A stretch of DNA of 64,000 nt. Source: Apostichopus japonicus. Its lineage: Eukaryota > Echinodermata > Holothuroidea > Aspidochirotida > Stichopodidae. The notes beneath the pieces were generated by a model. It did no database searches. It was not told where the DNA came from and was given only the letters and a program-made list of their open reading frames with translations. The translations under genes were made by a program, and so were the position numbers. Shown piece by piece: positions 18,917 through 59,543 of the stretch; the first letter of the stretch is position 1, and each line of letters starts with the position of its first letter. Location of the stretch: contig NC_092583.1 of the NCBI RefSeq assembly GCF_037975245.1, forward strand, positions 10,514,764 to 10,578,763. Direction: 5' to 3'.

Positions 18917-19504
18917 CGCGCGTACGGAAAGCCATTTTAACATTTTATCGGGAATTTTAGATATTTGAAATTGTTTCTTATTTCAGATATCTGAAATTGA
19001 ATTCGAGATATCTAAAATAGATTTCGAGATATCTGAAATTCTAATTCAGATATCTGAAATTGAATTCGAGATATCCAAAATTGAATTCGAGATATCTGAA
19101 ATTCTATTTCAGATATCTGAAACTGAATTCGAGATATCTGAAATTGAATTCGAGATATCTGAAATTGATTTCGAGATATCTGAAATGAATTCGAGATATC
19201 TGAAATCTATTTCAGATATCTGAAATTGAATTCGAGATAGGCCTATGTGAAATAGAATTGCAGATATCTCGAATTCAATTTCAGATATATCGAATTCAAT
19301 TTCAGATATCTCGAATTCAATTTCAGATATCTGAAATTCTCTGGTATTTCGAGATATCTGAATTTGATTTTAAGATATCTGCAATTATTTGTAGATATCT
19401 TAAATAAATTGGAGATATCTGTAATTTAATTTGAGATATCTGAAATTATTTCGAGATATCCGAAATTCCCGATTAAATGTTAAAATGTCTTTCCATACGC
19501 GCGC
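18917..19504. repeat. Palindromic GATATC satellite inside a hairpin element
   Basis: More than 20 loosely ordered copies of GATATCTGAAATTGAATTC-like units, each nearly self-complementary, flanked by inverted arms (CGCGCGTACGGAAAG on the left; reverse complement CGCGCGTATGGAAAG on the right) about 40 bp long. Confidence 0.85.
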
Positions 19505-20102: not shown

Positions 20103-20797
20103 GTCCGTCTAGCTAATTCATTTCGAAAATAAGTAAAAACTCCTCTCGGTGAAAGTCTGTGTCGTTTTTTGGTGATATTTAGTAACAAATTGTGACACGG
20201 TTAGACAGGCGCATAACAAGGAATTTGCCAAGGGAGGGGCGAAGCTTGTAGGCAAACTATCTGAGCGTGGTGCCACCATGAGTTGGTGCGAAGCGTAAAA
20301 GAAAACTTTGGTCGAAAATGCCTCCCAAATCGCTGGAAATGGCACTTCCCAGGCCTTGTAAGTTGCATCTAAGCATTTTCTATTTTGAAATTACTAGCGA
20401 TATCATAAAAAAAAAAATGCTCTTATAGCCACAAAAAAACTATGCCACCTAAAATATTGGGCGGGGACATGTCCCCCGTCCCCCATGACCACAGCATCTC
20501 GACAATATTGATTAAACTGTTATGTTAGTGTGAATTTAACACAAAAGTACTTTTCACTTGAACATACTGGTTAAGCGCCGGATATATACTAGCTCGAAGT
20601 TACTTAGTTAGTTAGAAGTTATCGATCGACAAAGATCTCTTGACAAATTGACACTAAATATTACGTTTTTTAAGCTTTATCCAGCTCGAGTAGACTTTCG
20701 CATTGTCTTGTTAGCGTAGGTAGTATGTCAAGTAGTATTTGTGTATGTGCAAGAAAAGCAGATTTTAAAACATTCATGGCTGAAGTTAATCCCTCAG

Positions 20798-22695
20798 CAC
20801 CGACGTATCCAGGATTTTCTTACCCGGGGGGCGCGAATTACTATCTAAGCGGAGCGCCACCATCGGTTGGCGAGCAGCGTACAAGAAAATTTCTGGTGTT
20901 TATACCCCCCAGATCACCGGAAATGACACTTCTCGGACTTGAAAATGACAAACCAGATGTACACTTTTGCCTAAGAACCAAGTACTTCCCAATAGTTTTT
21001 TTCCCCATCCATAACCTTTTTTGAAGATTGTCACCAGTCACACATCATGTTCGACCTCATCGCATGTCCTGTGGATCATTGCTTTTGTAGGTGATTCTAC
21101 GTAACGGCCCACAATACCCGACAGCCCCAGTTTTCAGCCCATTATTTGTTCAGAATTTGAAAATTCACATTTCTCGTGAATAAACTCCTTCAAAACATAC
21201 CCATAATGTTGCAAAAAATGTCATCTATGGACAACCAATATAGAAAACCTCCTTCAACCCCTAACAGATCGGTCAAAATAACACGAGTAGAGGGAAGTAT
21301 GATGAGGAAATTTTCGAAAATTCAGACACAGTTAATTTATTGGTGTACAAATATTGCAACCTGTTATAACGGCTATTATAAAACTTGGTTGAAGGAAATA
21401 AAAAAATACCAGATATTTCCGAAACCGAGCAATACACACATAGGCGTAGGAGGCGGGAGGGGCTGCAGCCCCTCCAACCAAATATTTTTTCCCTGAAAAT
21501 TAGGGCAATATACTGTGAATTTTTCGGGCACCTACTGAAAGAAAAATAAATTGCAATGATGTAGCTAAAGGAAATGAATATTTTATAAAATATCTCCTTG
21601 ATCATTAAAATAAAGTTCTAAGCTTGGCCTACTAAATCGCCATTAATAATGTAAAAGAGAATTTGACATGCTTTTTCTCCATCTACATAAGACATTTCGT
21701 TGTTTACATTAACATCCCGAGGTATACTGCGCAACTTCCAGGGACCGTTCGGTATACGATGGTATGCGATGTAATAACCGATGCTTGCGTATATGATATT
21801 GATATGTTGAACGCGCGCTTCGCGCGCGAAAAAATGAGGTTATATTTTTCTGACAAGTCGTTACAGCCCCCCAAATCAAATTTGGCTCCTACGCCTTTGA
21901 CTACACATATCGACAGTTTTGAGGCTGTTCAGGAGCCGCCATTTTCATGCTGCACTGATATGATGTGATATCTGCTCTTTGCTATACAAATTCGAACTGG
22001 CGCGTAGCGAAGAATTTGCCAAGGGAGGGGCGAAGCCTTTAGGCAAACTATCTAAGCGTAGCGCCACAATAAGTTGGCGCGAAGCGTACAAGAAAATTTT
22101 GGCTGAAAATGCCTTCCAGATCGCTGGAAATGGCACTACCCAGGCATTGTAAGTTGCATCTAAGCATTTTCTATTTTGAAATTATAGCGATATCATAAAA
22201 AAATATGCCCGGGGGGGGGGGGGGCGATCTCCCCCTTCCCGAAATGCGTCATGTTCCCCGACGACATAGCACAATTGTTTAAGGCGTCCATACACACACA
22301 CGCGTGATAGACCATATATAGTATACATACAGATAAATTAGTGAGAGAGGAAAAATGGAAAGTCGTCAAAAATGGAGTTGTCGGTGTATGGGGTAGGCCG
22401 GGTGAGGCGCACGCCCATTCCGAAATCCTCGATCCGTCACTGGATACCCGGCCATGTGTATATAATAGGGATCAGCGCTGTAATGATGTCACTGTTCCTC
22501 TTTCTCTTCCCGGTGTCTTGGCGTTTTTCTTCTGTTCCCTCCTTTCTCTCTTTCTTCTTTTTCTTTTCCCTTCCTTCTTCTCCTCTTCCTCTTTTCCCCC
22601 TCTTTTTCCCTTTTTTCTTCTCATTTTATCTCTCCTCTTTTCCTTACACAGGGGGCGTGCGCCCCCAACGGCCCCCCCCCCTGGATACGCGCCTG
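20798..22695. mobile_element. hAT-like nonautonomous element, copy A (left bracket of the Ig island)
   Basis: About 1.9 kb, ending CTGGATACGCGCCTG and beginning CACCGACGTATCCAGG. Near-complete direct copy of element B (40342-42348). It contains two direct copies of the GCGTAGCGCCACC module, a nested element (about 21437-21905) with TAGGCGTAGGAG termini, and a T/C-rich stretch before the right end. Left flank ends CTCAG; right flank does not match, so it has no private target duplication. Confidence 0.8.
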
Positions 22696-25434
22696 ATCAT
22701 GTTCATCGTGTATTTTACATTATCATCTGAGGTTGGGGTATCACATTAGATAATTTTCTGAGGTAATGGTTCAATTGGGCGTTTGTATTGTGCAGTTTGT
22801 GCACGGTGAATTCCTGTAACGCGTTGCCAATTTATTGCTCAGCTGAAAGCTATCAGCTGACCTATAGCGATTCTGCCGAAATTCTGTCACTATTTGCCAC
22901 CGTGTTTGATTGACGCTATTTCGGGTTTTATTTATTTATTCGATTTGACTGAAATTGTGTACGTGGTTTATTTGAGTTAAGATTTCATACACGCGATCGT
23001 GTTTAAGAAATCGCAAAAATACTCTTCCTATAGCGTTTGTCCAAATTTGCTTAAATGTTATGGACATATATATAACGTTTATAGGAGTGAAGACTCGCGT
23101 ACACAAACGTCTGATGCCGGTAATCTGACATAGTTTAGAATGATGTGTAACAGGAGTGTTAGACACCACCATTGATCCCAGAAAATACACACACAGCTTG
23201 CTACCGTCGGTAATTAGACACTAGTGTACGGTCAATACATGCAGCTACGGTCAACACCCACAACACAGTGTTCATAGGCAGCGGTAGACATCTCAGGTCC
23301 AGCTAAAGATATCAAGGTATCTCGTTTCATTAAGGTCTGCACTTTGTAGCGACAAGAAAAAAACTTCACTTGCAAGCAACGGAAAGTTAACTTTTCTCAG
23401 AACGCGGTTTGGGGAGAGTCTTCAATGCCTTTAAGTGGTGGTAAACCAAAGTACCGTAATTGTTCAGGAAATACATTTTTGTCGTCATGTGAAGGCCAAA
23501 AGCAGGGCCTTCTGTAAAATTTTAAGTAATGATATTACGTAGGCCAAAAACCAATGATCATGACATTTGTTTCAAATTTTTAGCATTCATGAACAGTATA
23601 GGCCTATAGTGCGTTCTGGTGTGAGTAGCAAAATTGTCTTCTTAATTTTCCAGTCATAGGCCTATTGGGAAATATTTCCACCCATTGGAGACTTGATTAA
23701 GTCTAATATTTACTTTTTGTTCAGGCTTGCTATATGTTTATAGTTCGATGTCATCATCCGCGTTTACCGTTTACCGTTACGCGTGGCTACCATTGTATTA
23801 CAGAATACATTTGTTTGTTTGGAGGGGGGAAAATCAGTCATATTCCTCACATTCAAACATCAAATTATATTTTACTTATGAAATAACATGTCTTGAACTC
23901 ATCAAACTATCAAAAGTCCAGCAAATTTCATCAAAATAATTTCAAATGGGCAAAAAAGTACATTGTTTGTATCATAACCTCATTTGCATATTTACATATC
24001 TAATTAGCTTAATTATAAAAAAATTTTTTAAAAATTAAAACCTCATTTCAATACCTATCTGTCAATACTAGGGTCCCTATTGACAAAAATGAAAAGATTT
24101 TAAGTAATTACAATGTGTAAATATTTTCCCCCAGGGGTCAATGATATGGGGGGGGGGACATGGTATATAAGGAGTTAAACGGATAATCCATTGTATTTGT
24201 TACAGATTTAAGAGAAACACATAATGGCACCCTGGTGAGATTTTCAAGCATTTCTATTTAGCGTTACTAGTCGAGAATCGATAACTAATAACATGTGTTA
24301 AGCCATAGTTGCACATAGCTGGAAGTAAATTTTGTGTGTATCTTTATTTTTTTCTTCATTTTTTGGACGGTGGGTTTGGTTAGTGTTTCACCTATGCCTA
24401 CGGGGATGTAAAATTAACAATATACCTATATATGACCACAGTGCGTAAATATGAAGCCAATGTTTGAAGCAGGGAGAAATAGTATGTATATTTCAAAGTG
24501 TAACATCAGAGAAAACTGTCAGTGTACTTCCATATGACATCACAACTGCTTGCTTCAAAGTTCACTTTGGGTACAATATATACGTATCGACGTCAAATGC
24601 TGTTATGTCGAACACTGTATACGGTAGCAGGAATTGATTGTTAAAGTCGCCAATTTAACACTTATGACATTCACATTATACAAATTAACTACTATATCAC
24701 AAAAACTGTACATATCAATATTCCTGCAGGAATTACCAAACTGATTGCACGGTCATCAGTCGAGGGGAAATGGTTCAGTTATAGCCTGGGGGTTTCGTGC
24801 TCTGCCGGGTACGAACAGGCTTCGAAAGTTCATGAAATATATTTTATAAATAAACAGTGAGAATAGTTTATTATGATGATTACTAACAACATTGAAACGT
24901 GACAAGTTTCATATACATTAGAATTCGTTCACTCCATTTTCCCATCATTCTTCAGGACAAATTAAGAAGTTTGTTTATAATATACTTCATAATTAACCAT
25001 TAAAACAGTGATAGAGAAAGTAAATGTTTCAGCTAACAGCGATATTAATTGTTATTAGCTCTTTGTTAATTAAATAATACGTGTCATATAAAGCTATTAA
25101 ATGGCGATGCTGTAAACATTAACATCATCATATCGATAGTGTTCTTCGAGCTATAGTACCCTTTGGCCAGATCTGTTTGCTAAATAAGGCTTTCAAATCA
25201 ATTATTCATCCATGACTGTTCGACATTTACGTATAGTTCTTCATTGTGTCTTAACCTATAATTCGTGGGTTTCGTTGTCTAAAACTTCCTTCAACAGGAT
25301 TTATATTGTATTCTGTGTACGTCCGTGACACGCTATACTCTATCTGAGAGTCCATCCTAAACATACCGTCTTTTCGACTGCAACAATCTCCGCAGTACCC
25401 ACTTATTTTGATGCCACATGATGCTGAATATAAA
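22696..25434. other. Island left arm: upstream region of Ig1
   Basis: Between element A and the Ig1 start. Apart from the inverted repeat at 23084-23433 I see no gene. The Ig1 promoter and any 5'UTR exon must lie here; no core promoter element is clear. Confidence 0.5.
23084..23433 (-). repeat. Dispersed repeat, TTAAAGGCATTGAA family (inverted copy)
   Basis: Inverted partner of 12132-12490, ending GCCTTTAA. Lies just inside the Ig island, upstream of Ig1. Confidence 0.65.
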
Positions 25435-26895
25435 ATGAAAGCCCACATCTTCGGCATCTTTAGCATATACATGCTTTATCGAGAGGTATGTTCCGAAAAA
25501 GCTGTGCAGTTTCAGGTTGGTCCAACATTTGAGATCTTCCCGGTTTTGGAAGGAATAAACGTAGAGTTACAGTGCGACGTGGAAACCAATGACCCTGTTT
25601 ATATCTTTAAGGATGTTTTAGGTGGAGTAGATATAAATATTGTTTCCGACAGCTCGCTGACAGAACATGAGAACAGTTCCAAGTACATTTACAACATCGG
25701 AACTTCAAGTGGTACATATCATATGCTTATTATACAGAACATCAGCAGACGAGACGAGGGCATCTATCTTTGCAAGCAAAGGCAGAGTGACTTAAAAGGT
25801 CTTGAATTGAATGTGTTGTACATGCATACCAAGCCCGTTTGTTTGCACTCTTCTGAGTACGCATACTTAGGTGATAACGATGATAAACAACTTAATTTTA
25901 CATGCGTTCTGAATGATATCGGGGACCCTCCATCCACGTTATTCTTTAAGAACACACCTAACGATTCTTCTGCAGTAATTCATTCAACCAAAATTCAAAA
26001 ACATGGAATAACTCTAGCTGCGCACGTTTCTTTTATTCCTGATGATTCTATGATGAATACCTCAGCAATGTGCTTTGCAAGACAAGAATTTCCACCATCT
26101 GTGAAGTCTCCACCGTTTGTATCTTTCTGTACATTTCAGCAAACCGCAGGTAAGGTTCTTGAAATCATAATAACACCGCCGTCTGCAGAGCTCTTTGCAC
26201 CAGATACGATCAATTACCAGTGTTCCAGCAATGTTGGTAAAGGAACATTATTCAAGTGGTCTGTGCCAAACGACTTGCCAGCCGAAGTCAAATATTACGT
26301 GAACGAGACACTTCTGACAATGTTTGTAAAGAAAACGAACGACCAACGAGATATTTCAATTGGTATAGAATGCATCGGTACATTTAATAATCAAGAGGGG
26401 AGAAGTCGTGCGTATTTACATGTTGTTAATTCAGGTTCTAATCTACATGGTTCACTCACCGTTGGTCTTATTGCAGCAATATCAGGAGGAGCGGTAGGCA
26501 TCTTCATTATGATTCTTGTCTCATATAAGTGTGTATGTAAGTCGTACCTGCAGCTGATAATGAATACCAAACGTCATCCTTACGGTGACAGCGAAAGAGT
26601 AAGGAAACTCACTTCTGGTTGGAACGGAGTAACAAAGTTAGTACCTATTTTTGGAGAAGATTGTTTGTCCGGCACTTCTTCAAACACTACGTACAAGGTG
26701 GAAGACTTTTCTAAGAGATGTATTGCTTTCATAGTGAGGCCCGAAAGATGCAGCTTGCAGATGACAGTGGAAGGAGAATCCTTGGACGACAACGACGAGA
26801 ATAAAAAGGATAGTGATGACGAAAATCGCTTGTATCAAGAGGTTAAGAAAGAATCGAAAGACGATGAACCCGTTTATATAGCTGTTGAAGGATAA
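25435..26895 (+). CDS. Ig-domain membrane receptor with ITAM-like tail (Ig1, 486 aa, single exon)
   Basis: Predicted type I surface receptor in one uninterrupted exon. From the ATG at 25435: a hydrophobic signal peptide (MKAHIFGIFSIYMLY), three Ig-like domains with Cys pairs at about 47/113 (with DEGIYLC, the D-x-G-x-Y-x-C Ig signature), 157/213 and 263/313, several N-x-S/T sites, one transmembrane helix (about 341-362), then a tail of about 120 residues rich in Asp, Glu and Lys. The tail ends with YQEV (Tyr467) and YIAV (Tyr481), spaced YxxV-x10-YxxV like an ITAM with Val instead of Leu/Ile. An in-frame ATG at 25411 would add eight residues before the signal peptide. An upstream UTR exon is possible (CCGCAG just before). 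Ligand and orthologue unknown. Confidence 0.82.
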   Translation: MKAHIFGIFSIYMLYREVCSEKAVQFQVGPTFEIFPVLEGINVELQCDVETNDPVYIFKDVLGGVDINIVSDSSLTEHENSSKYIYNIGTSSGTYHMLIIQNISRRDEGIYLCKQRQSDLKGLELNVLYMHTKPVCLHSSEYAYLGDNDDKQLNFTCVLNDIGDPPSTLFFKNTPNDSSAVIHSTKIQKHGITLAAHVSFIPDDSMMNTSAMCFARQEFPPSVKSPPFVSFCTFQQTAGKVLEIIITPPSAELFAPDTINYQCSSNVGKGTLFKWSVPNDLPAEVKYYVNETLLTMFVKKTNDQRDISIGIECIGTFNNQEGRSRAYLHVVNSGSNLHGSLTVGLIAAISGGAVGIFIMILVSYKCVCKSYLQLIMNTKRHPYGDSERVRKLTSGWNGVTKLVPIFGEDCLSGTSSNTTYKVEDFSKRCIAFIVRPERCSLQMTVEGESLDDNDENKKDSDDENRLYQEVKKESKDDEPVYIAVEG

Positions 26896-27030
26896 TGATC
26901 AACATTGTTCTTTTCACCCGACGCACACAGAGAACACAGTTACTATTGAACTTTAAGCTTCACGGCATTTACTATTAATCCCTATGTGAATATTTTGTTC
27001 ATTTGAAAACACGTTGACGTCCTCTTATAC

Positions 27031-27611
27031 TTAAAGGATTGGTCCAATTGTCATACATGTTTATGTTATATGAAAGAGGACAATAACAGAAACACAATGG
27101 TGAAAAAACTGTTCAAATATCTTTTTCGGTTAAAGAGATATTCAAGTGTAAAGTTTTATCAGATTGAATGTGTAGAAATGCTGAAATCTGACTAGCTGTG
27201 ATGTCACATCCTCACATTCCGGAAAGTCCTTGTTTGTTTTCTAAATATTTTGTGAGATTTTATAACTTTCAACCGAAATATATGTCAGGAGATCTCATAT
27301 TTGTCAAAGGAAGTATTTGAGATTAAACATCTGAAGAATTTTTGATTATATTATTTTCAAATGTGTTAAAAATGTAAATAATTTTTAAAGAAATATATTC
27401 ACACATGTTAAGGAAGTGAGGATGTGACATCACACCCAGCTCACAGTAAGTCTTTCTACACCAGTCATTTTCAAAAAAAAATTGATATCTTCAAAGTGTC
27501 ATATCTCCTTAACAGAGCATGCTATCATGGTAGTTTCTTCACTGTTCCTTTTGTCTTTTTGTGCTCTTTCATGCAAAATAGACATGTCAAACACCTGAAC
27601 CAATCCTTTAA
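27031..27611. mobile_element. Hairpin MITE with TTAA-type ends, 3' of Ig1
   Basis: 581 bp beginning TTAAAGGATTGGTCCAATTG and ending CAATCCTTTAA. Internal symmetry includes GTGATGTCACATCCTCAC and GTGAGGATGTGACATCAC. Ends on TTAA suggest a Kolobok- or piggyBac-type mobiliser (inference). Confidence 0.7.
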
Positions 27612-27925
27612 CGAACAGAAGATGTAGTGTGCAACATCAAAATTAATTGCTTTCTTCATCGAAGGAACTGTTCACACTTTTACAATATATTGTTCATATA
27701 TCTCTAGATATCCGTGTTTGAATGTAAACTATTTTCCATTGCTCTACAAAGTAGATCACAGTGATGTCATCCTGACAGATATTCGCCAGGATTTTCATTT
27801 ATTTATCAAATTGATTTTTTCGTCATTTTGAATTTTATTACTACGCTAATTTTTTTTCTTATGTAGGCGCTGACCGGCGGTCAATTTAGGAAGTGATACG
27901 CGCTACTACAAATAAACACATAAGC

Positions 27926-27927
<2 letters not shown>

Positions 27928-27958
<31 letters not shown>
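27928..27958. repeat. (GT)n microsatellite
   Basis: About 30 bp of GT repeat between the two convergent Ig genes. Confidence 0.95.
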
Positions 27959-30321
27959 TCCCATCTATTGCCAGAGAGCTAACTCCCATTAACAGATGGG
28001 TGCACTTAAATATAACTTAGGGTGCTTTGCTAAAGAGATAATATATTTCTAATTAGCACGTGCTCAACATGTGCAGTAGGTACAAAAATGTGTTTAGATT
28101 GTAAACTAATTATATAAAGAGATGAAACATTTAGCATGAACGTTTTAACGAAATACATTTTTAGTTATTGGATAACTAATTTATACAATTGATGAAGAAA
28201 AAACGCAGCCCTCTCCAGCTCATTTGACATGACAACATTGAACTCATAAAAGTTTTAAATTTTAATTCACAAAGTTTGGAAAAAATGATGGTGCAAATTC
28301 TATTAAGACTTTGTTTTGACAAAGAGATGAAAAAAAGTTTGAGCATTCAAAAAACATTGTTCCTAGGAATAACGCTTTAAATGTAACAAATGGATTAGAG
28401 TTGATGAAGTGAAAATGAATCAAGAACACACAAGCATTCTTATCACAATATTGATTATAACTGGTACATTGGAGGAAATTAATGTGACTACTGTTTTACA
28501 AGAGATTGGAGATTTACATCCTAATGGTATTTTATATTTTCTGGGGATTTTTTGTTGTTGAAATATATTGCCTAATGTCTACGGATACATCATCCTTACA
28601 AAATGAAAGAAGGAGATGGAGGGGTAAGAAGTAAAATAATAACATGGGTCTTACCGTCTAGCAACAAGGAATGAGTGTAAAATCGAGAACGTTCGTTGGC
28701 TTGCGTGTTCATTCTTTATAAATGCCCGTTTTAATATCCCCTCCTACCCCACAAGATCCTTATTTCTATTTTATTTTTCATATTACTGTGTACTTTTAAA
28801 CGTAAATTGTCAAAAGGTCAAGGAGACCCTGGGTAAAAGTTAAAACTGTTACCACTTGTGCGAAAAGATACATGTTGGACAAACAATCGGACATGTCTGG
28901 TCTTTTCGAACAGTGTAATGGTTGAAAGGTAATAAAGATACTGAGACTATAAAATGGCACGGTCGCCAAAAAAAAAGAAGTAAAACCTTTGGATCTTTCT
29001 ATTCAGACTGAGTTGGATTCTCTGTTATATTTACCTTACGTTGTTAAATATCCGAAAGTAGAAATTAAATGATAAAGTCATTAAACATATTGACGCTAAT
29101 GAATTTAAACATAGTTGCTTAGTAATATTAATATAAGCTCCCTGTGTACTTTCAAATTAGTATTACGATGAATATGCTTTCGTCGTATAGATTTCAAGTG
29201 TTTGAAATAAATGGAGGGCTTTGTTTTTCAATAGCAATAGCCCTCATTATACACATCCATGACAAGGAAGATAAAGTGGCTGCTTTGTTCCAAATGTAAG
29301 CGTTTAATTTAGTACAGTTTACCTAGAACAAGGAAGTTAAAATAACCTAACAACACACTATGATGTTATAAAATGATAATTGAAAGCCTTAGGTTTTGCA
29401 AAAATGATGTCACGAAATATGATGTTGTACATCAATATCACGAAATTTCAATTCTATGACAAAAATATTCAAAATGAGCAAAAATCATTCCAAAATTATG
29501 ATGAGAAAACCGATGCTCTCTAATGTTTGTTGCCTGTTACCTTTGAAGCGTTTACGTTTCGATCATGTTACCTTTTGATTTTTCTGTTATTTACTGAGCA
29601 AAAGGATGTTAGATTCATTTACTGATTAAACATTCTCATGAGCTTGATTTTATTTTTCATTACGTTGTAATTCTGTGCGATATCGTCTAATATAGTAGGA
29701 ATTTTTTAATGATATATAGGTCACCATTGATATAGAAACACTGTTCATTTAAATGCAGTAACATACGAATAATTTAACTTTTGTACGCTCAATAGGCATT
29801 AAATTAACCTTTTAATGGCAATGACGTTTATTTTTAATGTGAACTTAAAAAGACTAACAGTTGAGGGGATACTTAAGACAAAAAACAGTTAAGAATTAGT
29901 TTAGCACATTGTAACATAACATCATACAAACAATTCTGCTTATTACTTGGTTAAATACAAATGCGTAAAACAACAAAATACGTGCATTATTCCATGCGTC
30001 AAGACTTCAGATTCACCAAGCGACGAAACTCAAGGGGAAAGAAATAACGCTTCACCTGATAATGACACTACGAGATGAACAATATTACACACATAGCCAG
30101 TTTATATTATCATTCGTATGTGGGAATGTCAAGACTCATTTAGGGTCAAAAGAGACTGGCTTATCATAAGCCCACATAACTCACAACAAATAAACGCAGT
30201 ATCCATATTGCTATTATCATTTCCATTACAAAAGATCAAGTAATCATACACAAAAATGATCTCTTTAAGGGCATTCAGATTGGTACCATTTGTAAGCCAC
30301 TGATAGGCTGGTACTTTAACG

Positions 30322-31716
30322 TTACATCATCTGACTCGGAACGAGATATAATTGCCTGTCATAATTATACTTAGAGTTCTCAGAAATATCAGCATACTTT
30401 GCAGCTTCTTCCTCTGTATTTTGATTCAATGTTAGAGAGTGAGCATACACCTGAGGGTCGTCTTCATTAGTCTTATGCTCACCTACATGTGTACTTTCTG
30501 GTCGTATGGTAGTTGTATAAGTAGTGTTCGACCTCGGGAATTGGCCAATCGCATGAGATGATGATGGCGATGATGATGACGATGATGTTGCTAATCTACA
30601 TACGCATCGACGGCAATACAAGCGAAGTAATAACGTTACTAGTACAATGATAATACAGGAGAGAGCCAATATCATTAAATGACACAGATCGAAATGATGT
30701 GATATTACGAAATGAACACTGGCATGGTTGAAAATGTTCCTCCCACCATACGAACCACTGCAATGAAAATTTATTGATCCATCGATACTTGATCCATATT
30801 CAAATATCTTGAGCTGTAATGAATCATTGATCTTAGTGATGTTATACTGACAACTTTTCAGTGGAATATCAGTCCATTCTAGTTCAACTCCACTCACATT
30901 ACTGGTACAGGTTAGAGTAATATTTTCTCTTTTATTTGTGTCGACCGTGTAGCGAGATGGATTAATCGATACCGAGAATGTCGATAAAATCACTAATGGT
31001 CCGAAGGAACAAGATTTGCTGTAGCTCTGATAGGGAGCAGGTAAATGTTGGATTACTCTGCAGATCAAGCTGCTATTATTAGAAGAAGAATCCAGGTAGG
31101 TAGAGAATGATCGTGATTTTGAAAGCTGTCGCTCAGTGATTATTAAATCCGTGCTATTAACTTGTTTCTGTCTACCGTCCGTCTGAACGTAGAGAGATAT
31201 ATTAACAGCTGGGTCTCCTTCTTCTGTTGTACAGTTGAATTCGAACGGCACTTGTAATTGGTCGCTGAAGAACATAGGAAGTTCGTAATTGGATAAACAT
31301 CGAGGATACTCTTCTGGTGGGCTGTATATAACCTTTACGATTAAATATTTAAACACTGGATATCTACAAATGAATTTGTCTTGATTGTCTCGTGATACAT
31401 TGATAATAGTTAAAATACAAGCCGAGTCATTTCTGTTAAAGATAATATGATCTGGTAAGTATGGGATCAACGATCCATTCCTAACGTATTCTTTGTCATC
31501 TCCAGCTATATAACATTCATCAGTAATAGGTTGTTGACAGATGAGATCAATCGTATCCCCCTCAAGAACTTCATGATAAATCTTCCTACTACCTTTTGTA
31601 AAAATAAATGAACTTCTGAATCCAGTGGAGCCTTCAACCACGCATAGAACGGCCTCAATCGCAATCACAAAAATGACAGATTTTGCAAGCAAATCGTCTG
31701 CTGTATTTATCTTCAT
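30322..31716 (-). CDS. Ig-domain membrane receptor with multi-tyrosine tail (Ig2, 464 aa, single exon)
   Basis: Predicted type I receptor with no intron in the coding region. Signal peptide from the ATG at 31716 (hydrophobic run VIFVIAIEAVLCVV), three Ig-like domains with Cys pairs about 60/117, 162/219 and 270/319, many N-glycosylation sequons, a transmembrane helix at about 346-366, a Cys/Arg-rich juxtamembrane stretch, a Ser-rich stretch, and a tail ending with YADI (Tyr441), Tyr450, YDRQ (Tyr452) and YLVP (Tyr457). The frame stays open upstream to 31764, but that end is TTG, and a T-rich tract ending TATAG lies just before the ATG, which suggests a splice acceptor of a 5'UTR intron. Converges on Ig1 across 3.4 kb. 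Decayed relatives lie at 36.5-37.9 and 39.3-39.8 kb. Confidence 0.82.
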   Translation of the reverse strand: MKINTADDLLAKSVIFVIAIEAVLCVVEGSTGFRSSFIFTKGSRKIYHEVLEGDTIDLICQQPITDECYIAGDDKEYVRNGSLIPYLPDHIIFNRNDSACILTIINVSRDNQDKFICRYPVFKYLIVKVIYSPPEEYPRCLSNYELPMFFSDQLQVPFEFNCTTEEGDPAVNISLYVQTDGRQKQVNSTDLIITERQLSKSRSFSTYLDSSSNNSSLICRVIQHLPAPYQSYSKSCSFGPLVILSTFSVSINPSRYTVDTNKRENITLTCTSNVSGVELEWTDIPLKSCQYNITKINDSLQLKIFEYGSSIDGSINFHCSGSYGGRNIFNHASVHFVISHHFDLCHLMILALSCIIIVLVTLLLRLYCRRCVCRLATSSSSSSPSSSHAIGQFPRSNTTYTTTIRPESTHVGEHKTNEDDPQVYAHSLTLNQNTEEEAAKYADISENSKYNYDRQLYLVPSQMM

Positions 31717-33578
31717 TTTCGGCAAGTCTATAAAAAAATAAGGTGAGGAGAGAATTATGTTCAATGATGTTTGAAATATTTTTACAGCAAATTCTGAAGT
31801 GGAAGGGCGAAATGACCAATATCAGGTGACCACTGGCATCTCAGATAAAGACATATATTATATTAGTAAAGGAAGCTATCATTCTGAAATGATTAGTAAG
31901 TGCGTGTCCACCTAAATATATACTATTGTTTTGAACGTTGTCGTTGAAATTGAACTTACAAATATGAAAATATTGATGAAAATTGTTTAAATATATTTAT
32001 GAAGATTGCAAACGAAGTGGTGATGAGAAGTGTGTGATGCTAGCTAGCAGTGCATCAAAAGCAGTATACATTTGCACTCAAAGTCACAATACATGCAAAA
32101 TAAGACCAGATTATGACATTTACTAAAACCCATAGTCAACCTTTGAAACCATTTGTGATGCTATCTAAATTAAACAAGCCTGAGAGTTTCGAATAGTGTT
32201 GTGCAGAGAGGCATATATTGCCAACGGTGTATTGAGAGCGCATAGAAATTCATACCTGTTTTCTTCTTTAATGGTATGTGCGGTAGTTGACACTTGTTTG
32301 TTTTTCGTAGACCAAACTATAAATATAGTTTCAGCACAATGCAAACAATGAAAAAGGCTGTTCAAAAACTAATCCGAACAACCGCCTCAACGAAAGTGTG
32401 ACAATGACTCTTTAACAAGAGATGTTGTTCTACACAACCCGTGAACACTTTCTATTCATCAAGACAAACAATAGTAACGGTTATAACTCATTCCATATTT
32501 GGTCGATAACATTCAAAGTGCTCAATTATTTATAAACGCTTTCGTTCTTATCTAAGTTTTAACAGTTACTTCCTTTCCCATGATGACATAAACGATTGGC
32601 ATGTATATTAGAGCTAGCCTGGATATATTACGCAGGTTTCATACATCCCTGGGAGATGTTTATACTCACGAGATTATCAAAATCTATCTTAAAGAAGGTA
32701 AGAAATTGAATTGAAGTGATAAAATGAACCCTTTCGAAACAATAAAATTTTCAGTGCTTGGCCTTCTTGTTCTTTTCATGAATGACCTCTATGAGGGCGG
32801 AGCTAACTTGAGAACATCTCACCTTCACTTCAGATTTGCCCTTTGAATCAAATTGGTTGTTAATAATTATAAAATATTGTATGTATCTATGTACCTATCT
32901 ATCTATATACCTATCTATGTACCTATCTATGTACCTATCTATGTACCTATCTATGTACCTGTCTATGTACATATCTATGTACGTATCTATGTATCTATGT
33001 ACCTATCTATGTATCTATGTACCTATCTATGTATCTATGTACCTATCTATGTATCTATGTATCTGTGTATCTATGTATATATGTATCTATGTATCTATAC
33101 ATCTATGTATCGATCCATCTATGTATCTATGTATCGATCCATCCATCTATATATCTATGTATATATGTATCGATCCATCTATGTATCGATCCATCTATGT
33201 ATCGATCCATCCATCTATGCATCTATGTATATATGCATCTATGTATCTATGTTTCGATCCATATATGTATCGATCCATCTATGTATCGATCCATCCATCT
33301 ATGTATCGATCCATCGTTCATCTACATACAAACCATGATCACAAATAATCCAGTGGTAATATTAATAACATGCTATAGGAGGCGTGATAGGAAATTTATT
33401 TTGGGGGATGGTAGTGCTTGCCCTATCAGTAATATATCTACAGATTTGGCAACGGGCCTTCTGACAACCGATATTACATTTGGTGGTCTGTTGAGTAAAT
33501 GAAAAGTGAGAAGTAAGCAAACTGTAATGAAATGTATTTTGTGAGTTTCCGAAGTGTTGTCTGTTATATAATATTTGG
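31717..33578. other. 5' flank of Ig2 and microsatellite
   Basis: Probable 5'UTR and promoter region of Ig2, with a likely splice acceptor just upstream of its ATG, then the long ATCTATGT repeat. No other gene seen. Confidence 0.5.
32881..33320. repeat. (ATCTATGT)-type degenerate microsatellite
   Basis: About 440 bp of ATCTATGTAC, ATCTATGT and ATCGATCC variants in 4-nt steps. It gives spurious Tyr/Ile/Met frames. Confidence 0.95.
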
Positions 33579-34372
33579 CATGGGCGTCAGCAGGTTTCAG
33601 AAAGTGAGGGGGACACTATACTATCTAAGCGGAGCGCCACCATTGGTTGGCGCGTAGCGTACCAGAAAATTTTGGGTACATAAGACCCCCTAGATCGCAG
33701 GAGACGGCCTTCCTGAGTCGTTTTTAGTTACATCAGAACCAGATCTGTGAGGAGAAATTTTGTCTCACAAAACTAAATTCCGACAGAAAGTACTGGTAGA
33801 AAGATGCCGTTCTGACACCAAGGGAGACGAATTACACAGCGTCCATCTCAAACGATATATTTTCGGTAGTTTGGTATCATATAATATCCTGCATACAGGC
33901 AGAATACTGTCTGTAGGGCCTAAAATATATGATATTACCTTCCTGGTGGGGTCGTTGCCTTGTTTTCAAGTTGAAATGCGTCGTTGTTTTCTCTGATTCA
34001 CAGTGTAGGGCAAGGGGAATTCCATTTCTGGCGTGAAGGGGTGCTTCCACAAAACACTCTAAAACATCGTTCAAACATCGCACAAACTTTTATCAGAGGT
34101 CTCGGACGAAGCGGGGAGGGTGAATATCGGAGGAAGGGGGATAAAGGGCCAAGCACTGTTCTAATTTCCAGTGCAATTTATTGATAATGATTCTTAAGTT
34201 AGATTCTACTTGAATCAGCTCAGCAATTGTGATAGAAAATCGCGCATATGCATGTGATTTTTTTTAATAACTGCTCTGAAAAGTGGGTGGGACAAATGAT
34301 ATGATATCCCCTCCACTTTTGAAAGTGGGGGGGGGGACATGTCCCCCCGTCCCCCACCTGTTGACGCCCATG
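33579..34372. mobile_element. hAT-like nonautonomous element with perfect 8-bp TSD
   Basis: 794 bp with TIRs CATGGGCGTCAGCAGG and (reversed) CATGGGCGTCAACAGG, flanked by perfect ATATTTGG duplications (33571-33578 and 34373-34380). Contains the shared GCGGAGCGCCACC module near its left end. Confidence 0.88.
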
Positions 34373-34604
34373 ATATTTGGTGTAACTTTGTTTAGCCATA
34401 CTTCAAATTGTTCAGATTCAGCTGCTTATTTATTCATCCACGTTTGAACGAAGTCCTTGCGTGATTGGCTTGTTGAACCCTCGTGATTTTGTGTTACGTA
34501 ATTAGTCCTCTTCAGTGTCCATTTGGTATATGTACATTATATTGGGCTCACACGAAAAAAGGACTACTGGCGTTGGTTGCGTCTACTAGTATACATTATT
34601 TTAT

Positions 34605-34798
34605 ATGCTTCTCGGCCTTTGGCTAAGATCATGTGTAGTATCTGTTCCCTTCCGGAGGGAATGGTGATTCACACCCGACGATGATCACACAGTCACAGTC
34701 CCGATGCAAGGGGACTGGGGTTGAGAGCGGATCAGTCGTTCGGTAGTTTGGTTTTCGTGCCCAGGTTCTTTCTTGGGCGACTTTTCCTTAAAAAAAAC
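34605..34798 (+). mobile_element. U2-snRNA-headed retroposon
   Basis: The first ~52 nt match the 5' end of U2 snRNA (GCTTCTCGGCCTTTGGCTAA, then AGATCATGTGTAGTATCTGTTC). The sequence then switches to unrelated DNA and ends in an A-run near 34790. This resembles an snRNA-headed SINE and not a full U2 gene, because the branch-point recognition region and Sm site are missing. Confidence 0.6.
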
Positions 34799-35967
34799 AT
34801 TATTTTATATGCCAGATATTTAGCCATCTGGAATTACTTGTATCTTGTGAAATGGTTAGAAAGTAATGCTGTTTGTAATAGGGACCAGTTGAAGTGGGTT
34901 TTTGATGTTTTTGATGTTAAAGGGCTAAAAGAGTATTATAAGAGAATTATAAGTTTAATGCTTTCTTCGTGTGTGTTTGCTGGTTGACGTTTGTGCAATA
35001 GTAAAATTTGTCTAGCTTTTTGTGCCAAAAACAAACTATAAAATGATAACATTTTGTATTAAGTACTGTAAGTTTTCTATTTTTGTATTTCGATAGTTTT
35101 ACGTTTTACTGCGAATCGAATAAATTGCGGTGACTCCAACTTCTGTATACTTGTCCTTATTCTCGTATCGCCACGACAGTTACACAAACGTTCAAGGTTG
35201 AGGGTTTCCGTTGTGTAAGGAGGGGGGGGGGGTCTAAAAAAAAGCGAGCGATGGGTCATCATTAAGCAAACAGAAATCACACTTTACTGTACGAACAAGG
35301 GGGTTCTAATCGAAGACATGTGGGTACGTTTCAAGTCATCTTTGCGCCGGTAAAAAATGTGTGTTGTCTTGTCAACAATATCTACAAATATTTGGCAATA
35401 GGGGATTAAGAATAGAATCAATATAACCAGAGAGGCTTTCGGTTAGAGTTCTCATAGCCGGGTTTGACTGGAGTGGGTTATATTGTGAAGCTTGGCTAAT
35501 TGGTAAGAAAGCTTGGCAAAATTATTTGGAAATATCAGTGTTGTCGCAAAATTGATTGGCTGCCTTTATTTTCAAGTAAAGTTTGGATGAATTTCGTAAG
35601 TATATGGAGCTTGTGAAGAGTGTTTTTGAAAGTGCCAAGTTTTGGGGTTGGTCGGAATTAACAAAATGTTTCAAATTCGATGATGAAAATATTAGCTAAG
35701 CGGCAAAAGTTTGGAGTTTTCTTGTACGTTTACCTCGTCACAATAACGTTGTATTATAACAGGGTTTTGTAGGTATATAAATTAAACAATATTTCCTTAA
35801 TATGGTAGAACAGCCACCGTCAACGATTAAGTGCAAGTAAGAATAATATAATTCTTACCAGGGTATTATAATACAAAACATATATTATGCATAAGTTTCA
35901 CATTGGTTGGCCTATTAATGTTTTATGTCTGGAAAGAGATGAATAACAATATTTTCAGCATCAAATA

Positions 35968-35968
<1 letters not shown>

Positions 35969-36055
<87 letters not shown>
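35969..36055. repeat. (AT)n microsatellite
   Basis: About 87 bp of uninterrupted AT dinucleotides, followed by GATATAGATGTATG-type repeats to about 36210. Confidence 0.97.
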
Positions 36056-36059
<4 letters not shown>

Positions 36060-36529
36060 TTACATTACGTTTTCAATTATATATAGATATAGATGTAGAA
36101 TAGATGTATGTATTGATATAGATATAGATGTATGTATGTATAAATATAGATATAGATGTATGTGTAGATATGGTTGTATGTATAGATATCGATGTATGTA
36201 TAGATGTATGTAATTAAGATACTCTTTGTTTTAAACAACTGTTTAACGTATCTTCAATGCTATCACAAATAAAAAGTATATGAACGATGTTCCACCAAAT
36301 TAGCGTACCTTTGTTAGTAGCTGGTACAGAATTGGAAAGATACTACGATCATTTGCAATTCCTAAAAGCTCCTCTGGAGTTCCAGCCATTGAATAAATCA
36401 GAAAATAATTAACCTCATAATGTTACTTTTAATAGCAACGTTATTTAATGTTCCATAATATTTACACATAATGCATCAACGCCTTTAAACTTGATATCAA
36501 CTTTAGAGCTTGAGATCAGAAAACTTCAT

Positions 36530-37882
36530 TTAGTAACTGATAATGTGGTATATTTCCTCTTCATTATTCTCATCTGGAGCTAAATATAATTCCCTGTCAT
36601 ATTTAAACTTAGAATCCTCAGCAATACCAGCATATTGTTCCGTTTCTGACACTGTATATCGATGTGCAGTTATAGAGCGAGCGTACGTGGATAGATCGTC
36701 TACAGTAATTTGTTGTTGTTCTACATGTGAAGGCCCATTATTAGACGATCGGGATTGGCTCATAGTAGGAGATGATGGTGGCGAACGACTAATCCAATAG
36801 CGATATACGAGGACAATCAATAATATCAAGATGAAAATGATGATAGAGGCCGATACCACAATCATGTAGGGAGACAGATCGGAATCTGACCTTATTATAT
36901 CAATAATAGCCTGCTGGACAGTGTTACATCCTCCAAACGAACCGCTGCATTGAACAATTATTGATCCATCGATACGTGATCCATAATCGAACATTCTCAG
37001 TATCATTGAATCATTCATCCTACTGATATTATACCGCCAATCTTCCAGGGGAATGTAAATCCATTCCAATACAACTCCACTCACATTACTGGTACAGATA
37101 AGAGTAATATTTTCTCTTTTATTTGTGTTGGCTGTGTAGCGGGATGGATAAATCGATACCGAGAATGTCGGTAACTTGATATCACCAATGGTCCGAATGA
37201 ACAAGATTTGCTATAGCTTCGATAGGGAGCAGGTAACTGTTGGGTAACACTGCAGATAAAGGTAGCACCAATCTGAGTAGGTAGAAAATGATAGTGATTT
37301 TGAACGCTGCTGCTCAATCTCGATTAAATCTGTGCTGTTCAGTTGCTGATGTTGTGCATTCCTTTCAATGCAGAGGGATATATCATACGGTGGATCTCCT
37401 TCTCCTGTTGTACAGTTAAACTGGAACGGTTCTTGTCATTGGCTAACAAAGCGGGACACATGACTTTCGTAGTTAGACGTACACCGAGGGTACTTTTGAG
37501 ATGGGCTGTAAATAATCTTTAAGACTAAATATTGCAAATTTGGCTTCGTGCAGACGAAAAAGTCCTCATTGACTCGCGTTACATCGAAAATTGTTAAAAT
37601 ACAAGCTGATTCATTTCTGTTTAAGATAACATTATCTGGTATAGCAGGGCCAAATGAACCACTCCTAACATAAGTGACTCTGTCTCCCTCTATCAGACAA
37701 TCACCAGTAACATGTAAATGACATATGAGATCGATCGTGTCCCCCTCTTTGTGGTATATTCTGTAAAATTGGAATGATCTTTTGATTCCACTGGTGCCTT
37801 TAACTACTCAAAGACTGACAACTAAGGCAATCAAAGAAAAGACAGAGCTTTAAGGGAAACGTCGAACGATGGTTATCTTCAT
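36530..37882 (-). pseudogene. Degenerate paralogue of the Ig2 receptor (Ig3)
   Basis: Covers the full Ig2 architecture from signal peptide to tail but is broken. From the ATG at 37882 there are in-frame stops at 37850-37852 and 37808-37810 (both in the signal peptide) and 37436-37438 (second Ig domain). Frameshifts occur near 37276 (with loss of about eight codons) and near 37175. The last 225 codons (37204-36530) are open and include the third Ig domain, a transmembrane helix and the tail. The tail keeps the Ig2 pattern: YAGI, YDRE, YLAP, plus an extra YHII near the end. The conserved tail could mean recent decay, or use of the 3' part as a shorter product. Confidence 0.8.
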
Positions 37883-39284
37883 ATAAATTAATTGATCTTA
37901 GCTGGAAGAGAAAGATTGTAACCATATTTAACATCACTATCAAATCTGGACAACAATAGTGACCAATATTTGGAGGACGCACGAAATACTAATACCATAG
38001 TAGAAACTGGTATTTTGTTATGAAACAGAAGATTACGTGAAAATCGAATACAGATGGCGAAATTTGAAAGAGGAAGAATCTGAATGGTAAATTAAAAATT
38101 GGTATTCTTCACACAGGAGGGTAGATATCAAAATCTTATAACAAATATTTCAAGCGTTATAATGGCTCTAATGAGGAAATTTGAGTGATTCACCTCAATT
38201 AAACGTAAATTAATGCTGTACTAAGTAACACAATTTAATGTTCTTGTCAATTTCTCATTACAAACAGTAAATTACCAAATATTGTTGAATAATGCGATGT
38301 ACATTATAATCGAGGCTTGGGTTCTAAAACTGAATACTGTATCAACAATCGAGAAGATAAGAATTATACATTACCCAATTTTACGATAAGAAACTACTTG
38401 TAAATGTATTCCTTGCGTAAACACAAGCCCTTTACAATCTAAATGTTTGTGCTTTGACATTTTTTCAACCAGCATTACATGGCTACTTACAACTCCATAG
38501 TCATATACAGTGGCGTAGGAAGGCACTTTTGAGTGGGGGGGGGGGGGGCTGAAGACTGATGGCCGGCCTGGGGAGGGGTCTAAGGGGAGGGGTGTCCCCC
38601 TCCCCTTTGGAAATTTTTGCATTTCCAGGTGGCCTCAGATGCAATTTGGTGCAATATAGCACACTTCAACACCCACTCCATTTTGTAAACTTAATTTTGT
38701 ATTTTCACCTGGCCTTAGATGCAATTTGGTGCTCCAAATGAGATTTTTTATCTCATTTGGAAATGAAAAAGGGGTTTTCGGACTTGCGAAGCGGGGGGGG
38801 GGGGGCGGAATGATACTTCCGCCCCTCCACATTTTTCACTGGGGGGGGGCTGGCGCCCCCAGCCCCCCGGTTCCTACGCCCTTGGTCATATATTACCTCT
38901 TTATTCTTCTCACTATAGAAAATGTGATCAGAAACCTTTATTCTTTGCAACTGGAGCCTGTCGTAAATAAACTCAGAAACCTCAGAAAGGTTCAGCATTT
39001 TGCTTTGCAGTTATTGTGCGACGATTCGTATTGTCCTCGTTAAGTTGACGTAGTTTAGTAACAGCTAATCTTAGAGTCCTTAGATCATGATGATCTGAGA
39101 CTTGGGCGGACGGAACATAAAACAAACAAATTTAACAATTATATAACAATGACGGATAACAGCACAACAATAACTATAATAGGCCTATTGTCTTGGACGT
39201 TATAATCCAAAATCTGCAGATAAATCCTGACGTTCTCAGAAATACTTCTTTCTTTCTTTCATAAGAGCTATTACACTGAACAGT
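37883..39284. other. Spacer between Ig3 and Ig4 relics
   Basis: Contains the MITE 38508-38884; otherwise no coding signal. Confidence 0.5.
38508..38884. mobile_element. hAT-like MITE with perfect 8-bp TSD
   Basis: 377 bp, begins CAGTGGCGTAGGAAGG and ends TTCCTACGCCCTTG, flanked by perfect GTCATATA duplications. Second copy at 59146-59543. Confidence 0.88.
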
Positions 39285-39770
39285 GTGATTGGTCCATCGA
39301 TCTATACATATAATAAATCAAAAACATTCAGCTGTAATGAATCGTTCATCCTACTGATATTGTACCGCCAATCTTCCAGGGGAATATTAGTCCATTCCAA
39401 AGACAACTCCACTTACATTGCTGGTACAGGTCAGAGCAACATTTTTCCTTTTATTGGATTGACTGAGCATTTAGATGGATTAATCGATACCGAGAATGTC
39501 GGTAAAAGCAGCATCAATGATCCAAAGGAACCAGATTTATTATAGCTTTGATATGGAGCAGGTAACTGTTGAGTAACACTGCAGGTTAACGGAACACTGT
39601 TAACGACTGAATCCAGATAGGATTAAAGTGCTGCAAGATCGGTATTTCGAAGACCGTTTTAAGTTTTCGTCCGTCACGTGATATATTCTATCTTCATAAA
39701 GCAGAGAGTCATGTATAATTGTTGAATCTCCTTCTTCTGGATTAAGCGGGACAAACAATATGCTCTGAAA
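39285..39770 (-). pseudogene. Fragment of an Ig2-like receptor (Ig4 relic)
   Basis: On the minus strand, the sequence aligns by eye with the Ig2 second and third Ig domains: the stretch encoding SFSVSINPS-like residues, a CTSNVSG-like part, and the PAPYQSYSKS-like part, with several indels. No transmembrane or tail region follows and no long frame survives. A third, more eroded member of the local Ig cluster. Confidence 0.65.
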
Positions 39771-40341
39771 GAGGTTAAATTAATATTGTACTGTTTTCAC
39801 TTCCATTAGTCATACGGGGTAAGTGCAAAAAAAAACAGCAGAATTAATCCAAACATACATGCCAGTGTTTTGTACTCGGCGAAGGCAGGTAGGGCTAAAA
39901 TGAGATGTCGTCCAGGGGATGGTTAAGAGAAGGGACACCACCACCCCCCCCCCAGTAAGAAACTTGTTATAATGGAAAGGGGGGTCTTAGTGCAAAATTT
40001 TGCTATAAATTTGCAACAAATGTTGGAAGAATTTTCGACTATAGGCTGTACTGCATATACATAGTACATATTTACGTACTGTATACCAGAAATTTTAGTG
40101 GTATTTTTTTCCAGGGGGATCCCTGCATTTCACTAGAGGGCTAAGGCAGCTGTCGGGGAAATTTTATGTTGACTTAAAACTTCAGCACACTCTCCGTTTA
40201 TCCTGGCGGTTTTCCACGTACGTTGAACAACAGTAAAGTTGATTCGGGCTGCGATCTGTATTTGTGGTGTGCTTTAGGGACTAGGGTTGAGGGCAGTGTA
40301 GCATATTGGTGAGGTAATTGCACTTGTTCGTGCACAGGTTA

Positions 40342-42348
40342 CAGGGGCGTATCCAGGATTTTCTAACCCGGGGGGGGGGGGGCGCGAATTACTATCTAAG
40401 CGAAGCGCCACCATTGGTTGTCGCGGAGTGTACAAGAAAATTTCTGGTTTTGATACCTCCCAGATCACCGGAAATGGCACTTCTCGGGCTTGAAAATGAC
40501 CAACCAGTTGTACACAAGTTGCCTGAGAACCAAGTATTTCTCAATAGTTTTTTTTTCCATCCATAACCTTTCTGAAGATTGTCACCAGTCACACAGTGTT
40601 GGACCTCATTGCATGTCCTGTGGATCATTCATTGCTTTTGTAGGTGATTCTACGTCACGGCCCACAATATCCGAAAACCCCACTTTTTAAGGTTTTAAGC
40701 CCATTATTTGTTGAGAATTTGAAAATTCACATTTCTCGTGAATAAAATCACTTCAAAACATACCCATAATGTTGCAAAAAAATCAATCTATGGACAACCA
40801 ATATATAGAAAAACCTCCTTGAACCCCTAACAGACAGGTCAAAATTGCACTAGTAGAGGGAAGTTTGATGAAGAATGTTGGTGAGGAAATTTTCTAAAAT
40901 TCAGACACAGTTACTTTATTGGTGTAGAAATATTGCAACCTGTTATAACGGCTATTATAAAACTTGGTTAAAGGAAATGAAAAATACTAGATATTTCCGA
41001 TATCAGATATTTCGAAACCGAATAGTACACACATAGGCGTAGGAGGCGGGGCTGCAGCCCCCTCCCCCACCAATTTTTCCCCCTGAAAATTCGAGCAATA
41101 TGCTGAGAAATTTTCGGGCACCTACTGAAAGAAAAATAAATAGCAATGATGTAGCTTAAGGAAATGAATAGTTTAAAAATTATCTCCTTGGTAATTAAAA
41201 TAAAGGTCTTACCTTGGCCGACTAATTCGCCATTACTAGTGTAAAAGAGAGTTTTGACATAATTGGACCTGTATGCTTTTTCTCCATCTACATAAGACAT
41301 TTGGTTGTTTACATTAGCATCCGGCGGTATACTGTGCAACTTTCACGGATAATACGGCACACGATGACATGCGATGTAATGACCGATGCTTGCTTATATG
41401 ATATTGGCATTAAGATGTTGAACGCGCGCTTTGCGGGCGAAAAATTTTGGCTATATTTTTCGGGCAAGTCGTTACAGCCCCCAAATCCAATTGGGCTCCT
41501 ACGCCTCTGACTACACACATAGACAGTTTTGAGGCTGTTCATCCATGGAACATGAATTTTCATGCTCACTGATATGGTGCGATATCTGCTCTTTGCTTTA
41601 CAAATTTGAACAGGCGTGTAGCGAGTAATTTACCAAGGGAGGGGCGAAGCTATATGCAAACTATCTAAGCGTAGCGCCACTATGAGTTGGCGCGGAGCGT
41701 ACAAGAAAATTTTGGCCGAAAATGCCTCCCATGTCGCTGGAAATGACACTTCCCATGCCTTGTAAGTTGCATCTAATCATTGTCTATTTTGAAATTACTA
41801 GCGATATCATAAAGAAAATTGGCTCGGGGGGGGGGGGGGCGGTCACCCCTTCCCGAAATGTGTCATGTTCCCCGACGACTCGGTCGAGTTCAAGACCAGC
41901 CACAGTTGGTTCCATATAGCACAATTGTACAATTGTTTTAAGGCGTTCATACTCACACGCTTTATGATAGACCATATATAGTATATATATAGAAACATTA
42001 GTGAGAGAGGAAAAATGGAACGTCAAAAATGGAGTTGTCGGTGTAAGGGGTAGGGTGAGGCGCACGTCCCCTCCGTAATCCTCGATCTGTCACTGGCTAC
42101 ACTGTGTATATAATAGGGATCAGCGCTGTACTCTGACTGTTCCTCTTTCTCTTCCCGGTGTCTTGGCGTTTATCTTCTACTCCCTCTTTTTCTCCTTTTT
42201 CTCTCTTTCTTCTTTTTCTTTTCCCTTCCTTCCTCTCCTCCTTTTCTTTTTTTCCCCCTCTTTTTTCCTTTTTTCTTCTCTTTTTTCCTCTCCTCTTTTC
42301 CTTACCCGGGGGGCGCGCTCCCCCAACGCCCCCCTGGATACGCGCCTG
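40342..42348. mobile_element. hAT-like nonautonomous element, copy B (right bracket of the Ig island)
   Basis: About 2.0 kb with TIRs CAGGGGCGTATCCAGG and, reversed, CAGGCGCGTATCCAGG. Same orientation and internal order as copy A. Right flank is CTCAGCGCTTATCGG, which continues the left flank of copy A as seen in the empty site at 59731. No coding capacity for a transposase is visible. Confidence 0.8.
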
Positions 42349-53031: not shown

Positions 53032-53366
53032 ATATATATATATAAAGTCTGTTCAAAGTATCTCTTTCGAGATCCGGCTTTAGGAATCACAAATGATTTT
53101 CGAGTTGGATAGCATCATGTTTGATCTCTAGAGTAGGGCAAAATATGTCACCAAAAACAGAACTAGTATTGTTCGATATAGGTGACAAACGCCTACAGTG
53201 GAATTACAATCTTCCTTACCGGTTTCGAACCTCTGGACATACAATCAGCGTCCATAGCCTAGTGGTTAGGGTGTCCGCGTACAGAGCGGGAGGCCCGTGG
53301 TTCTAATCCCGGTGGAGGCTGAAAGTTTTTTCACTGTTCTTGATTTTCCAACTCATTACGATTTTC

Positions 53367-53412
<46 letters not shown>

Positions 53413-59145: not shown

Positions 59146-59543
59146 CAGTGGCGTAGGAAGGTACTTTTGAGTGGGGGGGGGGGGGCTGAAGACTTATGGC
59201 CGGCCTGGGGGAGGGGTCTGGAAATGCAAAAAATTCCAAAGGGGAGGGGACACCCCCTCCCCTTTGGAATTTTTTGCATTTCCAGGTAGCCTCAGATGCA
59301 ATTTGGTGCAATATAGCACACTTCAACGCCGACTCCATTTTGTAAACTTAATTTTGTATTTTCACCTGGCCTTAGATGCAATTTGGTGCTCCAAATGAGA
59401 TTTTTTTTCTCATTTGGAAATGAAAAAGGGGTTTTCTGACTTGCGAAGCGGGGGGGGGGGGGGCGGAATGATACTTCCGCCCCTCCACATTTTTCACTGG
59501 GGGGGCTGGCGCCCCCCCCAGCCCCCCGGTTCCTACGCCCTTG
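59146..59543. mobile_element. hAT-like MITE, second copy
   Basis: 398 bp, same family as 38508-38884, with TSD TACTGAAG/TGCTGAAG. Near its left end is a long inverted repeat (GGAAATGCAAAAAATTCC and its complement, about 59219-59283). Absent from the paralogous site near 20600, so it inserted after the duplication. Confidence 0.87.

Follow-up and report, generated by a model that had tools for sequence, protein, structure and literature searches.

Macrotransposons formed by the maize elements Ac and Ds were reportedly described by Huang and Dooner in 2008. In the portions of the maize literature available to us, the outer ends of two linked elements move the DNA lying between them, from kilobases to 100 kb, and a duplication is found at the outer flanks, as illustrated by a 28-kb Ac macrotransposon that was excised with a modified 8-bp duplication left behind, a 10.3-kb Ac macrotransposon that reinserted with an 8-bp duplication (both PMC9910405), and up to 100 kb mobilized by a Ds/Ac pair (PMC3260210). 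Here, a similar arrangement was analyzed in a sea cucumber. As far as the cited excerpts go, the maize duplications measure 8 bp, the autonomous element is known and the events were caught in breeding material, whereas the present case concerns an animal and a 5-bp duplication, is reconstructed after the fact, and involves immune-receptor-like genes that would have passed between chromosomes.

The arrangement also resembles bacterial composite transposons and TIME-COMPs, for which the sections at hand describe two short non-autonomous copies bracketing passenger genes that are moved together as one unit (PMC13367494), but here the setting is a eukaryotic chromosome, the copies belong to a TIR family with a 5-bp duplication, and the passengers are host receptor genes. 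Immune-receptor genes likewise occur at several unlinked loci in the case of tomato Cf-Ecp5, with macrotransposition among the hypotheses named in the accessible part of that source (PMC7202015); it is one of several hypotheses there, whereas both donor-side and target-side footprints are read here. An animal parallel, two nearby P copies moving en bloc, comes from the Anopheles P-element MITE, although it was proposed there as the origin of the MITE and the available part of the account mentions no gene cargo (PMC1562414). A limited search of open-licence literature returned no animal precedent in which donor and target are both readable, which does not establish that there is none.

Two elements at a junction of the P450 array

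The window (the whole stretch analyzed, 64,000 nucleotides, C23:10514764-10578763) belongs to an assembly of 671,581,487 bases in 35 contigs, which are labeled by number below (C2, C4 and so on), and its features are given in window coordinates (Table 1). Self-comparison of the window revealed a tandem P450 array, with 92-94% identity between units 2 and 3 and about 74-96% between units 1 and 2 in aligned pieces, and one exon in the window gave a P450 profile match (E 3.2e-19). The "P450 spacer" of the original prediction corresponds to the junction between tandem P450 units, as seen from the heme-motif exons. Within unit 1, a palindromic 21-bp tandem repeat (AGATATCTGAAATTGAATTCG-like) occupies 18917-19503 and is unmatched in the alignment to unit 2. 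A tRNA-like sequence was also detected at 53248-53320 (Rfam tRNA, 44.4 bits), the surroundings of which (53042-53405) recur three times within the C11 stretch at 89-94% identity and are probably a dispersed repeat.

Elements A and B are direct copies of one TIR element and 82% identical, exactly at the coordinates and with the flanks originally predicted. Neither has a target duplication of its own, as both are flanked by CTCAG on the outside while the inner flanks read ATCAT for A and GGTTA for B; separate matching duplications on the two elements were looked for and are absent, which leaves a single insertion unrefuted. The inner flank of A had been given as ATCATGTT, but the duplication is 5 bp, so it is read here as ATCAT. 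At the next P450-unit junction, 59724-59743 reads TTAATCCCTCAGCGCTTATC, with CTCAG present once and uninterrupted. When the outer flanks of A and B were joined in a script, they aligned through this unit 2/3 junction, and the sole difference at the join itself was the extra CTCAG. The unoccupied CTCAG at 59731 is a paralogous site and not an allelic empty site. With CTCAG shared by both outer flanks and single at 59731, the prediction that the block of about 21.5 kb, with two Ig receptors and two relics, behaves as one insertion was borne out.

Table 1. Features of the window (window coordinates unless a contig is named).
Feature	Position	Strand	Remarks
P450 unit 1	end 20797		
CTCAG, left half of whole-block target duplication	20793..20797	+	same as 42349-42353; single copy at 59731-59735
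Element A, complete non-autonomous TIR element	20798..22695	+	CACCG left terminus; outer end used, left end
ATCAT, inner flank of A	22696..22700	+	donor target of A
Cargo, 17.6-kb Ig-receptor segment	22696..40341	+	both ends collinear with C11:28228965-28257682
Ig receptor 1, open single-exon frame	25348..26895	+	515 codons stop to stop; open 92% paralogue at C11:28231236-28232786
Ig receptor 2, open single-exon frame	30322..31821	-	499 codons stop to stop; on C11, spread over three frames
Ig receptor relic 3, interrupted	36530..37885	-	
Unrelated MITE inside cargo	38508..38884	.	GTCATATA as 8-bp duplication; not present on C11
Ig receptor relic 4, fragment	39284..39631	-	same as C23:10554047-10554394
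GGTTA, inner flank of B	40337..40341	+	donor target of B
Element B, complete TIR element	40342..42348	+	subfamily other than that of A; outer end used, right end
CTCAG, right half of whole-block target duplication	42349..42353	+	
P450 unit 2	42349 to about 59735		
P450 unit 3	start 59731		
CTCAG, paralogous unoccupied target	59731..59735	+	at next P450-unit junction
P450 heme-motif exons	near 4801, 45779, 63248	-	

Thirty-two other copies of the element family were examined, and both ends were found in 29 (the exceptions being L022, L025 and L028). An exact 5-bp target duplication flanks 25 of these 29, including L012 with TTTAT on both sides, although four of the 25 (L006, L014, L016 and L026) sit in TA runs where a duplication match is weakly informative. 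As a control, left and right flanks of different copies were compared, and these matched in 6 of 812 pairs. The relative of A on C2 (L002, 92%) shares the terminus of A and carries a duplication of its own (ATACG), and the full-length relatives of B on C22 (96%), C19 (95%) and C17 (94%) each have their own 5-bp duplication. A complete copy without one is therefore unusual. The four copies without an exact duplication were L004 (0/5 bases), L013 (4/5), L053 and L054. L004 (C22:11240145-11245120) is a complete copy with intact ends and a candidate for another paired-ends rearrangement, and L053 (C15:27492310-27494520) and L054 (27503140-27505349) are related copies in inverted orientation to each other, separated by about 9 kb, with a common right flank and different left flanks.

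An 8-bp duplication match was found in none of the 29 copies with both ends. The hAT-like label given to A and B in the original prediction is doubtful since the duplication is 5 bp and not 8 bp, the length reported for Ac in the available part of PMC9910405. Judged on duplication length, the family does not fit canonical hAT.

These frequencies bear on the idea that the Ig block was relocated by a segmental duplication, with no transposase involved, and that A and B landed on its edges later, their duplications then decaying. Copies lacking an exact duplication do exist in the family, as such decay would have it, but two insertions would be needed exactly at both breakpoints and in one orientation, together with matching outer 5-mers that recreate an unoccupied site, for which the cross-pair control gives the chance expectation; we consider this extremely improbable. 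Independent decay combined with a chance match of the outer flanks was rejected on the same control.

The Ig-receptor cargo and its chromosome 11 counterpart

On contig C11 (chromosome 11), the match to the cargo begins at window position 22696, the first base after A, and its right end was placed by BLAST at 40339, two bases short of B, where the next two bases are TA in the window and AA on C11. The A site on C11 is uninterrupted and contains no element (...TTCCACC ATCATGTTC), and the same applies to the B site (...GCACAGGTAATATCC), which is present in three C11 copies, all uninterrupted and all without B (GGTAA, GGTAA and GGTTA). The inner flanks ATCAT and GGTTA thus represent the donor sites of A and B, and these sites are unoccupied on C11. 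The left outer flank on C11 (1 kb) occurs only once genome-wide if matches of about 40-55 bases are disregarded; the right outer flank recurs at two more C11 places. A genome search with these outer flanks found neither an excision footprint nor any C11 sequence in which A and B are present. Elsewhere, the C11 stretch contains short pieces resembling the family (about 100 bp, near 28226.9 and 28246.4 kb).

The same outer flanks bear on reversed-ends transposition. In that process, the elements are re-replicated together with flanking DNA, i.e., sequence outside the pair. With re-replication, a composite insertion as in maize would also yield transposon termini around duplicated segments, as stated in the accessible portion of PMC4270019. 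Here, however, it is the inner segment that forms the cargo, and short repeat-like matches (80-413 bp) to the window are all that the C11 outer flanks yield, so that we regard this route as highly improbable.

The C11 locus spans 28.7 kb compared to 17.6 kb for the cargo, and its internal arrangement differs. Divergence between the two is 3.4% next to A (22696-23773), 7.7% over 24175-26979, 8.6% over 36887-38424 and 10.7% over 38885-40339, and it rises to about 14-21% in the central part, in which the C11 locus is rearranged and contains additional sequence. Part of this addition is a pair of large ORFs (C11:28238192-28243021, in inverted orientation) that in our reading look Penelope-like and are missing from the window block. 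Based on this divergence and the different internal arrangement, the present C11 haplotype is regarded as a relative of the donor and not as the donor itself. The MITE inside the cargo and a sequence at 59146-59543 belong to one MITE family with CAGTGGCGTAGGA ends, the first of which has the exact 8-bp duplication.

The comparison is also informative about an assembly artefact in which C11-like sequence was joined to C23 sequence. Repeats are present at both junctions and the joins were judged from the assembled sequence, but a false join would not leave behind a duplicated 5-mer that also has an unoccupied counterpart, and the block differs from the C11 copy by several percent and by its private MITE; an artefact is accordingly scarcely credible.

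Both open receptor frames scored just under the Pfam cut-offs (receptor 1, Ig_3, E 2.7e-6, 28.2 bits versus a cut-off of 30; receptor 2, C2-set_2, E 4.6e-4, 20.6 versus 21), and on these sub-cut-off profile scores they appear Ig-superfamily-like and are referred to as immune-receptor-like. An alignment-free structure prediction for receptor 1 was uninformative (mean pLDDT 35.5), and a PDB sequence search gave matches only at E 0.048-0.067. Compared with C11, receptor 1 has a dS of 0.048 and a dN of 0.036, and receptor 2 a dS of 0.133 and a dN of 0.067 over 297 codons. The C11 counterpart of relic 3 is more complete, with a frame of 359 codons that also stops before the tail.

A search with receptor 2 gave 79 matching pieces (pieces and not genes, with the best 86 of 110 candidates scored), distributed over C11 (57), C4 (10), C19 (6), C23 (4) and C18 (2), and all four C23 pieces fall within the block. 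Receptor 1 as query gave 23 matches, on C19 (11), C11 (6), C13 (3), C15 (1) and C4 (1) in addition to itself (1). Since the receptor 2 pieces are mostly on C11 and those on C23 are all in the block, sequence similarity points to C11 as the contig where the gene family mainly resides and as the likely home of the segment, with movement from C11 to C23. Near the end of C11, at about 25.9-28.3 Mb, single-exon Ig-receptor-like genes and relics form a large cluster, and smaller groups were observed on C4, C13, C18 and C19. The surroundings of L002 on C2 (20 kb) were considered as an Ig source and rejected, as they have neither Ig nor P450 similarity.

Testing elements A and B for mutual exchange

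Besides composite transposition, the original prediction had offered a single insertion followed by ectopic recombination, in which one element at CTCAG in the P450 junction later underwent homologous recombination or break repair with elements beside the Ig genes and thereby imported the block. One duplication outside the pair would likewise result, but the two elements left behind should be hybrids. For B, test sites were chosen without reference to B itself as those at which A and L002 agree, the three relatives of B agree, and the two groups differ. At these 113 sites, B has the state of its own relatives at 109, that of A at 1 and neither at 3. Sites for A were chosen without A, requiring that the relatives of B agree and differ from L002, which gave 141 sites. 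Where the unusual (derived) state belongs to the relatives of B (69 sites), it is absent from A at 65, present at 3 and replaced by another state at 1, and the three B-subfamily states in A are scattered (612, 1180 and 1735). Where it belongs to L002 (57 sites), A shares it at 34 and not at 23, the latter being read as later changes of L002 itself, and A follows L002 at 14 of the remaining 15 sites. An earlier site set had been chosen partly on the state of A, so that its result of 0/114 sites at which A resembles the relatives of B holds by construction.

A comparison made without the relatives of B had appeared to favor exchange, as B followed the majority at 96 of 109 columns, A at 8 and neither at 5, with five A-like columns, the last diagnostic ones, near the right end of B. 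This A-like tail is, however, also present in the relatives L058-L060 and is thus native to the subfamily of B. No sites that separate the two lie in the final stretch of either element (about 99 bp in A, 96 bp in B), which could still accommodate an exchange confined to it. Overall, as judged by these diagnostic sites, neither A nor B is a hybrid with the other along almost all of its length. The hybrids required by the ectopic route were not seen outside an uninformative last stretch of about 100 bp, within which any exchange would need to fall, and we therefore consider this route very unlikely. Macrotransposition is favored over it because A and B are not hybrids and because the C11 match is bounded by the element edges without either element lying there.

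A proposed route from chromosome 11 to chromosome 23

Macrotransposition of the A-Ig-B segment by the outer ends of its two elements is, in our view, very probably the origin of the block, and of the two routes originally predicted it is the one that agrees with the outer CTCAG, the unoccupied C11 sites and the non-hybrid elements. Weighing against it are the divergence of the C11 copy, which is not the immediate donor, the family-like fragments in the C11 stretch, the paralogous nature of the unoccupied target, the 23 sites at which A departs from L002, and the four other copies without an exact duplication. At the level of sequence, its visible components are the target duplication with a paralogous unoccupied target, the unoccupied A and B sites on C11, and two complete elements. 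In the proposed sequence of events, A (at ATCAT) and B (at GGTTA), non-autonomous copies of one TIR family from different subfamilies, would have inserted into the C11 cluster in the same orientation so as to bracket Ig-receptor genes. A transposase supplied in trans would then have paired the left end of A with the right end of B, and not the ends of one element, and the 21.5-kb block would have been cut out of an element-bearing donor haplotype of C11 and pasted into C23 at the CTCAG separating two P450 units, with duplication of this 5-bp target. The Ig locus that remains on C11 without the elements would be the other haplotype, or a gap-repair product copied from it.

As a rule, the escape of immune-receptor genes from tandem clusters appears to be deduced solely from paralogy. 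Here, the relocation is legible base by base, from the unoccupied target and both unoccupied donor sites to the non-hybrid elements and the remaining home locus, and we rate the case as an unusually complete new instance of a known mechanism. Its footprint, a common outer duplication with mismatched inner flanks, is simple enough for a genome-wide search. That receptor genes repeatedly disperse from the C11 Ig cluster to other chromosomes by macrotransposition, so that a receptor lost from the home haplotype (receptor 2 in this case) can be kept in a moved copy, is a tentative and rather unlikely extension. If the proposed relocation is true, a multi-gene receptor segment would have travelled between animal chromosomes by means of the machinery that two small, non-autonomous elements use.
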